From assembly GCF_000376385.1 (NCBI RefSeq), contig NZ_AQWN01000014.1, forward strand, positions 1 through 38,349: a DNA stretch of 38,349 nt, given 5' to 3'. This stretch comes from Desulfurispora thermophila DSM 16022 (lineage in GTDB: Bacteria; Bacillota; Desulfotomaculia; Desulfotomaculales; Desulfurisporaceae). Shown one piece after another: positions 1,804 through 5,751 of the stretch (its first letter is position 1; each line of letters starts with the position of its first letter). Made by a program: the position numbers and the translations under genes. Below the pieces are notes generated by a model that searched no databases, was not told the DNA's origin, and worked only from the letters and a program-made list of their open reading frames with translations.

Positions 1804-2535
1804 TTAGCGGCCTGCTTTTAGCCCGGCCAGGGCCATTTTACGCCTTACATAAGCTAGCTGCATTTGCAATGGCAACTGCATGGGGCAGTTATCGTCACAG
1901 GCCATCAGTCCCATGCAGCCAAAGGCGCCCTCGTCACAGCCGATAACTTCAAAGTACTGGGCGGGTGTACGCTCATCGCGCGGATCCACCATAAAGCGGG
2001 CTACCCGGTTAATGCCGGCGGCACCCAAAAAATCTTCTCTGATATTGGCCGTGGCGCAGCCGGCAATACAGCACCCGCACTCAATGCAGCGTTCGGCCTC
2101 GTATATTTGCAAAGCTGTTTCATTATCCATGCGCTCTTCTATGGCCTGCGGGTCAAATTGTTTGCCGGTGTGGATCCAGGATTCGGTTTTCAGTGTCATG
2201 TGCCGGAACCAGGTGCCCGTGTCCACGGACAGGTCGCCTATCAGTTTAAATACCGGCAATGGCAGGAGAGTAATCTTATCCGGCAGATCCTTGGTCAGGG
2301 TTTTGCAAGCCAGGCGCGGGCGGCCGTTGATGATCATGGCACAGGAGCCGCAAATGGCCGCCCGGCAAACAAAGTCAAACATCAGGGAGGGATCCTGCTC
2401 TTCCCGGATCTGGTTGAGAGCGACAAAAATAGTCATACCCACCGTTTCAGTGAGTTTGTATTCCTGCATGCGCGGCGGCACGTCAGGGTTGTTGGGATTG
2501 TATCTAAATATGCTGAATGTTAGTTGCCTGCTCAT
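1804..2535 (-). CDS. sdhB: Succinate dehydrogenase/fumarate reductase iron-sulfur subunit
   Basis: This 243-residue subunit passes electrons from the flavoprotein to the membrane haems. The N-terminal plant-type ferredoxin part has C57, C62, C65 and C77 for the [2Fe-2S] cluster. The C-terminal part has the CIECGCCIAGC motif for a [4Fe-4S] cluster and CMGLMACDDNCP, which with the last cysteine of the preceding motif serves the [3Fe-4S] cluster. I chose the ATG at 2533-2535 because ggaggg sits directly upstream; the frame is open eight codons further, but that extension has no such site and overlaps sdhA. It is the third gene of the operon. Whether the enzyme runs as succinate dehydrogenase or fumarate reductase cannot be read from this subunit. 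Confidence 0.95.
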   Translation of the reverse strand: MSRQLTFSIFRYNPNNPDVPPRMQEYKLTETVGMTIFVALNQIREEQDPSLMFDFVCRAAICGSCAMIINGRPRLACKTLTKDLPDKITLLPLPVFKLIGDLSVDTGTWFRHMTLKTESWIHTGKQFDPQAIEERMDNETALQIYEAERCIECGCCIAGCATANIREDFLGAAGINRVARFMVDPRDERTPAQYFEVIGCDEGAFGCMGLMACDDNCPMQLPLQMQLAYVRRKMALAGLKAGR

Positions 2536-2555
2536 GATACCCTCCTTTTGGTGGA

Positions 2556-4370
2556 TCACTTCTTCACCTGGGTGGACTCACCATAGCCGCGATCGCCGGG
2601 CGGTAGTTCGGTAATTTTTACCGGCTCGTAATCCAGTTCAGGTAGATCGCTACCCGGTTTCCAATAGGCCAAAGTGCGCTTGAGCCAGTTGGTATCGTCC
2701 CGGGCCGGGTAATCCTCCCGGTAATGGCTACCCCGGCTTTCTGTGCGCTTGAGTGCACCGTAGGCAATGCACAGGGCCAGTTTGAGCATGCCCGGCATGC
2801 GCAGGGCGGAAGCCAGTTCGGGGTTGGCCCATTTTCCGTCGGATTTAAGCCCGATTTTCAAGGAACGGTGGTAAAGTTCCTGCAGTTTGGCCACCGCTTT
2901 CTCCAGATCCGGTCCGTTGCGGAAAATACCTACGTAATCCATTAAGGTTTGTTCCATTTCTTTGCGGATCTTATAAACATTCTCCCGGCCGTTTTTGCCC
3001 TGGATCAGATTGTTGATCCGTTCTTGCTGTTGCCGGGCGAAGTCCTGCACCAGGCTGTAGTTGTAATTCAGTGTTGCTCCCAGAGTGTACTGAGCAATCT
3101 TTTTGCCTACAACCATACCGCTGACAATGGTTTCGGCCAGCGAGTTGCCGCCTAGGCGGTTGAATCCGTGCAGGTCCCAGCAGGCAGCTTCACCTACAGC
3201 AAATAACCCTTTTAGGCCGTAGGCAGCACCATCAATGTTGGTTCTCACGCCTCCCATGCTGTAGTGCTGGGTGGGACGGACAGGAATCAGATCTTTTACC
3301 GGGTCTATGCCGTTGAAGTTGCGGCAGATGTTGGCAATCTCCCGCAGGTTGGTGTTGATGTGCTTGGCTCCCAGGTGGCGAATATCCAGCCACAGGTGGG
3401 GACCATAAGGGCTGTCCACACCGTACCCCTTGCGGATGTGTAGCATCATGCGGCGGGCCACCACGTCCCGGGAAGCCAGTTCTTTTTTCACCGGTTCGTA
3501 ATCCGGCATAAAACGGTGTAAATTTTTATCCAGCAGGTAACCGCCATCGCCCCGCGCCCCTTCTGTAATCAATATCCAGACCGGCACCATGCCCGTGGGG
3601 TGGAACTGCACAGCTTCCATATTACCCAGCGGCACGATGCCGGTTTCCAGAGCAATGAACATGCCGCTGCCTTCATTGATTACGGCGTTGGTGGAAGCGC
3701 CGTACAGGCGGCCGTAGCCTCCGGTGGCTATTACCGTGGATTTGGCCAGGTAAATGCGCAATTCGCCCGTCCTCAAACAGCGGGCTACCACTCCCAGACA
3801 GGTCGTGCCGTCGTGGATCAGGGCAATGGCTTCGGTGCGGTCGTGCACGGTGATGCCCAGTTTGACCACAATGCTGTCCATGGCGTATTGCAGTGTGTGT
3901 CCCGTGCCGTCAGAAGTATAACAGGTCCGCCATTTGGCTGTACCGCCGAAGTCGCGGGCGGTAATCAAGCCTTCCTTGTCTTTGGTGTCTTCTATCTCCC
4001 TGCCGTCGGGCAGTTTTTTCTTGCCGGCCACCACCCGGTTCCACGGTACACCCCAGTAAGCCATTTGCCTTACAGCAATGGGGGCGTTTTCCACAAACAG
4101 GCGGGCTACGTCCTGATCACAGCCCCAGTCGGAGCCCTTGACCGTATCTACGAAATGCACGTCCGGGCTGTCGCCCTTGCCCATGGCACAGTTGCCCAGG
4201 GCTGCCTGCATACCACCTTGGGCGGCCGTGCTGTGGGAGCGGCGGGGTGGGATCAGGCTCAGAATGATGCAATCCAGTCCGTGGGTAGCCGCTTCAATGG
4301 CCGCCCTTTCGCCGGCCAGACCGGCGCCCACAACCAGTACGTCTGTGGTGATAATCTGATAGTTGCTCAT
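2556..4370 (-). CDS. sdhA: Succinate dehydrogenase/fumarate reductase flavoprotein subunit
   Basis: This is a full-length (604 aa) catalytic subunit that interconverts succinate and fumarate. It shows the FAD dinucleotide-binding motif VVGAGLAGERAA near residue 12, the HSTAAQGG motif near 46 (the histidine carries covalent FAD in this family), the active-site segment TEGARGDGG near 270 and QHYSMGGVRTN near 367. The start ATG (4368-4370) overlaps the sdhC stop by 4 bp and has ggaggtg upstream. The order C-A-B is that of Wolinella frdCAB and Bacillus sdhCAB. Confidence 0.97.
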   Translation of the reverse strand: MSNYQIITTDVLVVGAGLAGERAAIEAATHGLDCIILSLIPPRRSHSTAAQGGMQAALGNCAMGKGDSPDVHFVDTVKGSDWGCDQDVARLFVENAPIAVRQMAYWGVPWNRVVAGKKKLPDGREIEDTKDKEGLITARDFGGTAKWRTCYTSDGTGHTLQYAMDSIVVKLGITVHDRTEAIALIHDGTTCLGVVARCLRTGELRIYLAKSTVIATGGYGRLYGASTNAVINEGSGMFIALETGIVPLGNMEAVQFHPTGMVPVWILITEGARGDGGYLLDKNLHRFMPDYEPVKKELASRDVVARRMMLHIRKGYGVDSPYGPHLWLDIRHLGAKHINTNLREIANICRNFNGIDPVKDLIPVRPTQHYSMGGVRTNIDGAAYGLKGLFAVGEAACWDLHGFNRLGGNSLAETIVSGMVVGKKIAQYTLGATLNYNYSLVQDFARQQQERINNLIQGKNGRENVYKIRKEMEQTLMDYVGIFRNGPDLEKAVAKLQELYHRSLKIGLKSDGKWANPELASALRMPGMLKLALCIAYGALKRTESRGSHYREDYPARDDTNWLKRTLAYWKPGSDLPELDYEPVKITELPPGDRGYGESTQVKK

Positions 4371-5002
4371 AGGGCACCTCCCAGCGAATTAAATACCCAC
4401 AGGGCCGCCAGGCCCAGCGCCAGGATAATGGCAGTGATCATTTTGGTTACATAGCCCAGGGGCTTGCGCGGGAACCAGCCCCATTTGACAAACTGGCGGT
4501 AAATGCCAAAACCGGCATGATATTCACCTAAAAACAGCAAAATCAGATAAAACCACCAGAATGCTTTCATTCTCTCGGCACTTACATCGGCCTGGATGGG
4601 CCAGTTGGTCAGGATGGTAAAGACGTGCATGGCGGCCAGTGCTAAAATGGCCACGCCTGTTATGACCTGGAAAACCCAGACCCAGGTGTCGGTTCCTTTA
4701 ATCATTTTGGCATGCCGCCAGATGATCTTTTGTTCCTGGTAGCGGGTAGGGATGCGCCGTCCGGCAGTAAGAATATGCATGATGGCAATGACAATAACAA
4801 TAGGGATACCGATGTAAGAGAGGTAGTAGTCGTCCAGTCCCTTGGCCAGGGCGTTGTAGACGTCTTCCCCCAGCAAAATGGTGGCCACAAAGATCATGTG
4901 TGTCCAGAGAAAGCCTACCAGGCAGAGGCCGCTGAAAAGCTCGACCAGGTCGTAGTAGAGCTCTGCCCGGGGGTTTCTGGTAAGAAGTTTTTGTACGAGC
5001 AT
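4367..5002 (-). CDS. sdhC: Dihaem cytochrome b subunit of succinate dehydrogenase/fumarate reductase
   Basis: The 211-residue protein has five predicted membrane helices and anchors the enzyme to the membrane, exchanging electrons with menaquinone. Four histidines in the expected helices (H35 in WTHM, H76 in MHIL, H126 in MHVF, H162 in EYHAGFG) are the likely ligands of two b haems. E160 lies two residues before H162, the place of Glu-C180 in Wolinella succinogenes fumarate reductase, the key residue of its proton 'E-pathway'. That hints at reversible or fumarate-reducing operation (inference). The start ATG has aaaggaga upstream. It is first in the operon and is preceded by a 130-nt leader from a sigma-54 promoter. 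Confidence 0.93.
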   Translation of the reverse strand: MLVQKLLTRNPRAELYYDLVELFSGLCLVGFLWTHMIFVATILLGEDVYNALAKGLDDYYLSYIGIPIVIVIAIMHILTAGRRIPTRYQEQKIIWRHAKMIKGTDTWVWVFQVITGVAILALAAMHVFTILTNWPIQADVSAERMKAFWWFYLILLFLGEYHAGFGIYRQFVKWGWFPRKPLGYVTKMITAIILALGLAALWVFNSLGGAL

Positions 5003-5144
5003 GGCAATCTCCTTTCATTTTGGATTTTGCGGTGCAGCAGGTGCATTGTGTCCAGCGCACCGCTGCCAGTACTACAGCGGGATGATTGCGCTGATGTAAC
5101 GCGGACAACTCCTGCCGTAGCACCTGGGGCATTAATTGATACAC

Positions 5145-5160
5145 AGCAATAAGTGTGCCA
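5145..5160 (-). promoter_or_regulatory. Sigma-54 (RpoN) promoter of sdhCAB
   Basis: On the minus strand the sequence TGGCACACTTATTGCT matches the -24/-12 consensus TGGCAC-N5-TTGCW exactly, with the required 10 nt between GG and GC. Transcription should start near 5134, giving a leader of about 130 nt before sdhC. No sigma-70-type promoter of comparable quality was seen upstream of sdhC. Sigma-54 promoters need an AAA+ enhancer-binding activator, which is not encoded in this window. Confidence 0.75.
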
Positions 5161-5270
5161 GTGGTTTGGTAGCTAATTGACAGGTGATTTTCTAATAGCT
5201 ATAAAGACTGAATTGTGGCAATATTAATCCAGTGGTTTCTAAATTTTATAAATATGAGGTAAAAATAAAC

Positions 5271-5312
5271 TTTGCACCCGGATAAAACAAGGACTGGAAC
5301 AAACGGTGCAAA
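5271..5312 (-). repeat. 8-bp inverted repeat: terminator or activator site
   Basis: tttgcacc and ggtgcaaa flank 26 nt. Read on the minus strand, the hairpin is followed by tttattttt, so it could terminate the zinc-ribbon gene at 5371-5751. It also lies 137-178 bp upstream of the predicted sdhC start point, the usual distance for a sigma-54 activator site. The sequence does not decide between the two. Confidence 0.45.
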
Positions 5313-5370
5313 GCGTTAACATTATTCTAGAAATTAGAAAAAACAAAAGGTGTTGCCAGGGATAGGGTAA

Positions 5371-5751
5371 CTATTCGCCTTTATTCATCAATGTTAAAAA
5401 GATGTTGTTGCCCTCTTTGTAGCCCCGTACCAGATTGCAATGGCGCAGTACGGCAAATTGTTTTTCCAGCTCAGCCGGTGCAAGATTAAAATACTCGTAT
5501 AATTGCTGTTTGGTCACACTGCCCTTTTCTTTGATATAATTATAAATATCCTGTTGCAGGGCTGTAAGACCCTGGGTGCCGGTTTGGCGCAGCATCTGCC
5601 GGGTGGCCAGCGCGCTGGAAACAGCTGTCGGGTCGCAGGGACGCGGCGGTTGCACGGCACTGACATAGCAGTCTTCACAGAGGGTTTTGCCGTAGTAGTC
5701 AAAGTGATCTTCTCCGGCCGGGATTTCTGCCTGACAATGTTGACACTGCAC
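5371..5751 (-). CDS. Small zinc-ribbon plus winged-helix protein, function unknown
   Basis: The 126-residue product has an N-terminal treble-clef/LIM-like zinc site (CQHC at residues 3-6 and CEDC near 25-28), a linker rich in P, A and S, and a C-terminal part (about 60-120) that looks like a winged helix (LQQDIYNYIKEKGSVTKQQL, then a wing ending GNNIFLTL). A DNA-binding or transcription-linked role is an inference from this architecture. The start is GTG (5749-5751) with a perfect aggaggt 8 nt upstream. It stands alone on the minus strand, upstream of sdhCAB. Confidence 0.7.
   Translation of the reverse strand: MQCQHCQAEIPAGEDHFDYYGKTLCEDCYVSAVQPPRPCDPTAVSSALATRQMLRQTGTQGLTALQQDIYNYIKEKGSVTKQQLYEYFNLAPAELEKQFAVLRHCNLVRGYKEGNNIFLTLMNKGE

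Follow-up and report, generated by a model that had tools for sequence, protein, structure and literature searches.

The minus strand of the window, by which we mean the whole 38,349-nt stretch of DNA that was analysed, carries a three-gene sdhCAB operon, a predicted promoter and leader, and a further gene 5' of sdhC:

1804..2559, minus strand: sdhB/frdB, iron-sulfur subunit (NF010071, 409 bits against a cut-off of 264)
2556..4370, minus strand: sdhA/frdA, flavoprotein (NF006383, 1053 bits against a cut-off of 663)
4367..5002, minus strand: sdhC/frdC, dihaem cytochrome b subunit (matches to PF01127 and NCBIfam FrdC)
5003..5134, minus strand: predicted 5' leader of sdhCAB (strong RNA fold of -53.2 kcal/mol, much more stable than shuffles at z = -3.8)
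about 5134, minus strand: predicted transcription start, about 12 nt past the GC of the promoter element
5160..5145, minus strand: -24/-12 sigma-54 promoter element TGGCACACTTATTGCT, an exact match to TGGCAC-N5-TTGCW
5371..5751, minus strand (same strand as sdhC): gene with weak similarity to ArsR/SmtB-type HTH proteins

The first-pass annotation had named the three genes sdhCAB/frdCAB, and this assignment is correct as judged by the CAB order, the family matches and the invariant histidines of SdhC. FrdA and FrdB exceed the NCBIfam cut-offs for the Wolinella-type fumarate reductase subunits, and the match of SdhC to FrdC falls under the FrdC cut-off. In an alignment of relatives, His35, His76, His126 and His162 of SdhC are invariant, and these residues presumably correspond to the haem ligands. 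By its sequence, SdhCAB is thus predicted to be a dihaem succinate dehydrogenase/fumarate reductase of the Wolinella type (FrdCAB).

The same annotation had described an exact TGGCAC-N5-TTGCW element on the strand of sdhC, 143 bp before the gene and preceded by AT-rich DNA, and each of these points was borne out. The distance between GG and GC in TGGCACACTTATTGCT is 10 nt, 143 bp separate its last base from the ATG of sdhC (position 5002), and positions 5161-5370 are 66% AT. The exact consensus occurs once in the window, as TGGCACACTTATTGCT. Sites with up to two mismatches number 32 against 29.8 expected, which is chance level, and therefore only the exact match can count as evidence on its own. 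Across the genome (2.82 Mb) there are 10 exact matches, and the reversed-pattern control gave 0. Four of the other exact sites precede genes that, judged by eye, encode a 2-oxoacid oxidoreductase, an iron alcohol dehydrogenase, a thiolase and EtfB; the alcohol dehydrogenase gene also adjoins an activator gene. A single rpoN gene is present (476 aa; PF04552, E = 2e-61; C-terminal RpoN box), as are about 20 sigma-54 activators (21 proteins with a strong activation domain, the weakest match at E 2e-33). Only strong matches were counted because the family also matches in genomes without sigma-54; four further AAA+ matches are weak and probably unrelated to sigma-54 activators.

The element was expected to be kept in close relatives, and it lies 5' of sdhC in Desulfofundulus, Desulfotruncus, Desulfallas, Desulfoscipio, Pelotomaculum and several Peptococcaceae MAGs. 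We compared 47 sdhC regions, comprising the window and 46 named loci of the same order (mostly Peptococcaceae/Desulfotomaculales-type genomes), and allowed up to two mismatches with GG and GC fixed. A -24/-12 element was found on the coding strand in 24 of the 47 regions and on the reverse strand in 2, where 1.0 was expected from the permuted consensus and 1.6 from dinucleotide shuffles. The start codon lies at a variable distance (64 to 371 bp) and the N5 letters differ between regions, which indicates that the element is more than conserved flanking DNA.

In the AT-rich DNA upstream of TGGCACACTTATTGCT, a 17-bp palindrome, TTTMTAA-N3-TTAKAAA, occurs three times. It is located 30-180 bp upstream of the -24/-12 element and is kept at other sdhC promoters, and we predict the three copies to be activator sites (UAS):

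5189..5205: palindrome 1, TTTCTAATAGCTATAAA, centred at about -63, one mismatch
5236..5252: palindrome 2, TTTCTAAATTTTATAAA, centred at about -110, perfect match
5324..5340: palindrome 3, ATTCTAGAAATTAGAAA, centred at about -198, two mismatches

Three sites with up to two mismatches arose in 0 of 3000 shuffles of the 210-bp region; for palindrome 1, shuffles of the region give 0.003, and the genome has just one perfect site besides TTTCTAAATTTTATAAA. Among the 24 sdhC regions with a -24/-12 element, the palindrome is present in 12 at up to one mismatch and in 18 at up to two (0.14 and 1.2 expected from shuffling), compared with 0 and 1 of the 23 regions without the element, although these counts are partly circular, since the motif was first spotted on these sequences. 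An independent check came from gapped dyad counts run separately on the 24 sdhC regions and on 25 intergenic regions between an activator gene and fumarase (described below), and in both cases the same words ranked high (TTAT-N7-AGAA, TCTA-N6-ATAA and TATA-N6-AGAA). Dyad counting was used in place of a palindrome-constrained EM motif search, which settled on GC-rich sequence in the fumarase regions. Pelotomaculaceae sdhC regions mostly hold half-sites and seldom the full 17-bp palindrome. A perfect inverted repeat, CTTTGCACC-N26-GGTGCAAAG, also lies between the predicted activator sites at 5270-5313; it was considered as an activator site and dropped, as it is the TTTMTAA palindrome that recurs at relatives and at fumA.

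These data bear on whether the 16-bp match arose by chance, with sdhCAB transcribed instead from a sigma-A promoter or by read-through of the upstream gene. That gene lies on the same strand and we found no terminator between it and sdhC, so that read-through into sdhCAB is conceivable, and loose matches to the consensus are common. However, positions 5003-5370 contain no good sigma-70-type site on the sdhC strand, and the element is strongly conserved across species and linked to upstream palindromes. Chance was consequently rejected as the origin of TGGCACACTTATTGCT, on its enrichment in the genome and its conservation across species, and we regard this account of sdhCAB transcription as highly improbable. 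We consider it very probable that TGGCACACTTATTGCT is a genuine sigma-54 promoter and has predicted activator-binding sites of its own. Whether it would be the sole promoter is a separate matter, as TGGCACACTTATTGCT could be a real but secondary, conditional promoter that acts beside basal read-through. The same-strand upstream gene favours such an arrangement and a second start is compatible with all that was computed, but no sigma-A-like promoter was detected near sdhC. We consider this arrangement rather doubtful, and it would be compatible with the explanation that we prefer; the strict dependence of sdhCAB on a sigma-54 activator, as first proposed, may accordingly be relaxed or hold as stated. 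The product of the upstream gene matches the ArsR/SmtB-type HTH at E 8e-6, which is below the cut-off, and has a Cys-rich N-terminus.

The leader was searched against Rfam, which returned no family for it or for four Pelotomaculum leaders. Ten sdhC leaders of the Pelotomaculum type have in common a AAGGAGGGGATG block and, shortly past the -12 element, a hairpin AGCTATCTT..GATAGCT that is sometimes followed by T-rich DNA. The consensus fold of these leaders displays little covariation, and the block and hairpin are possibly an attenuator or leader RNA.

If TGGCACACTTATTGCT is a sigma-54 promoter, one of the enhancer-binding activators would serve it, and the palindrome points to a candidate. 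The genome contains 11 palindromes with up to one mismatch. Two of them belong to the sdhC region, and another, on contig C11, separates an activator gene (EBP) from fumA and is the only one of the 11 to adjoin an activator gene. The remaining sites are mostly without a close -24/-12 element; two have 2-mismatch sites nearby. The features on C11 are as follows:

C11:64819-66513: gene for a PAS-type sigma-54 activator (EBP), head of the methylmalonyl-CoA (mmc) cluster
C11:66616-66632: palindrome between the EBP gene and fumA; the second -24/-12 element follows after 91 bp
between the EBP gene and fumAB: second -24/-12 element, TGGCATGATATTTGCG

The genes after the activator encode the alpha and beta subunits of fumarase, succinyl-CoA synthetase, the large and B12 subunits of methylmalonyl-CoA mutase, an epimerase, a carboxyltransferase and a biotin carrier; the cluster is without sdh. 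According to Pfam, the activator contains a PAS domain, an AAA+ domain (PF00158, E = 6e-76) and a Fis-type HTH (HTH_8, E = 8e-6), and GAFTGA occupies residues 332-337. With an AAA+ domain bearing GAFTGA and an HTH, it is predicted to be a bacterial enhancer-binding protein. Residues 1-117 match no family at Pfam cut-offs. A confident model of this N-terminal part (pLDDT 87.5) shows alternating strands and helices, as in a Rossmann-type fold; the full-length model is poor (pLDDT 53.7). The N-terminus resembles the NAD domains of dehydrogenases (profile E 9e-6, with GFO_IDH_MocA in 8 of 20 members). However, the dinucleotide-type glycine motif varies among orthologs and the shorter orthologs align only from about residue 120, which makes NAD(H) sensing by the N-terminus only a lead. 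Five short orthologs are without the predicted N-terminal Rossmann domain and keep the fumarase promoter, most of them with palindromes; sdhC had no match in three genomes with short orthologs.

Of 60 genomes in the order, 25 (its own included) encode an ortholog of the C11 activator. The orthologs, at 63-73% identity, are clearly separate from its paralogs, which reach at most 51%. A fumarase motif follows the activator gene in 24 of the 25; the other has the promoter but lacks a FumA motif over the stretch that was examined. In 23 of the 25 a -24/-12 element lies between activator and fumarase, usually about 200 bp past the activator stop codon. The sdhC promoter tracks the activator: the -24/-12 element precedes sdhC in 19 of the 22 genomes that have both activator and sdhC, versus 0 of the 13 that have sdhC without the activator (Fisher p = 4e-7, a value uncorrected for kinship; the species are related and the counts thus not independent). 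Among the three exceptions, two have the order EBP-[-24/-12]-fumAB-sdhCAB, and the third encodes the activator and has only weak -24/-12 matches at sdhC.

The co-occurrence also bears on whether a real sigma-54 promoter at sdhC is driven by another of the approximately 20 activators, e.g., one responsive to C4-dicarboxylates. Paralogous activators are many and are up to 51% identical across relatives, which leaves room for such a regulator, but the palindrome adjoins only one activator gene in the genome and it is orthologs of the mmc-cluster activator that track the sdhC promoter (19/22 vs. 0/13). We therefore judge control by a different activator to be improbable. The first-pass annotation had foreseen an enhancer-binding activator and had suggested one sensing a C4-dicarboxylate as an example; the former expectation is supported and the latter is refined, as the shared palindrome and the co-occurrence point, as the best candidate, to the PAS activator heading the mmc cluster, which is not of the DctD type.

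Taken together, we estimate a probability of roughly 0.85 that the sdhCAB sigma-54 promoter is functional and is driven from the palindromes by the mmc-cluster activator, which would co-regulate the mmc cluster. All sigma-54 promoters are opened through the AAA+ domain of an activator. In the model that we infer, from the transcription start and the protein-DNA contacts to the identity of the activator and its signal, RpoN-polymerase would occupy 5145-5160 and the mmc-cluster activator would bind the palindromes at 5189-5205, 5236-5252 and 5324-5340. On receiving its signal, the activator would open the sdhC promoter via its AAA+ domain and would act likewise on the -24/-12 element before the fumAB-sucCD-mutase-epimerase-carboxyltransferase genes. 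Two unlinked units, sdhCAB and the mmc cluster, would thereby be induced together, and the outcome would be a complete methylmalonyl-CoA route between propionyl-CoA and malate in which SdhCAB provides the succinate/fumarate step. The signal may be NAD(H) or a CoA-ester/redox state perceived through the Rossmann and PAS domains. More tentatively, an activator that combines PAS with a Rossmann domain sensing NAD(H) or a CoA ester could tie the unlinked sdhCAB to the mmc cluster throughout the order, as the metabolic switch by which syntrophic propionate degraders, and sulfate reducers related to them, turn succinate oxidation, the energetically limiting step, on or off; we offer this extension as a possibility that is well short of probable. 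The proposal names a single regulator, a single palindrome and two promoters, all open to direct test.

One of the genomes with the activator, which very probably is that of Pelotomaculum thermopropionicum by our assumption, has the arrangement found here, i.e., an activator ortholog followed by fumarase, and a -24/-12 element before fumA as well as before sdhC. In P. thermopropionicum, SDH1 (PTH_1016-1018) is reported to be highly expressed during syntrophic propionate oxidation, and of all the steps by which these anaerobes oxidise propionate, succinate oxidation is described as the least favourable (PMC10308238). In syntrophic propionate degraders the pathway is reported to be clustered save for a few steps, including propionate activation and succinate oxidation, and shared sigma-54 control of sdh and the mmc cluster is unmentioned in the two reports that describe this (PMC10579422, PMC11201294). 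A shared sigma-54 activator, if true, would explain how the separate sdh operon stays in step with the clustered pathway, and in this group of anaerobes a single dedicated regulator would turn on the two halves of the pathway.

Sigma-54 regulons of Clostridiales likewise consist of enhancer-binding activators and -24/-12 promoters on catabolic operons, and the main text of that study names no target for succinate, fumarate, sdh or frd (PMC6615313). In the regulon of Geobacter sulfurreducens, RpoN controls fumarate/succinate metabolism via dcuB and apparently increases the expression of fumarase; the study reports no sdh/frd operon with a -24/-12 promoter, and the terms "frd" and "sdh" are absent from the main text (PMC2725144). 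The main text of the Desulfovibrio sigma-54 regulon paper names no sdh or frd promoter. The sigma-54 mechanism is thus a known one, and the target, the regulon and the likely activator appear to be undescribed in the literature searched; the fumarase promoter or its regulator may have been described earlier. The Bacillus subtilis sdhCAB operon has, as here, a dihaem SdhC and the same order with SdhAB, and it is sigma-A dependent and without enhancer-type control. If our reading is true, sigma-54 control would extend to a respiratory enzyme of the complex II type.
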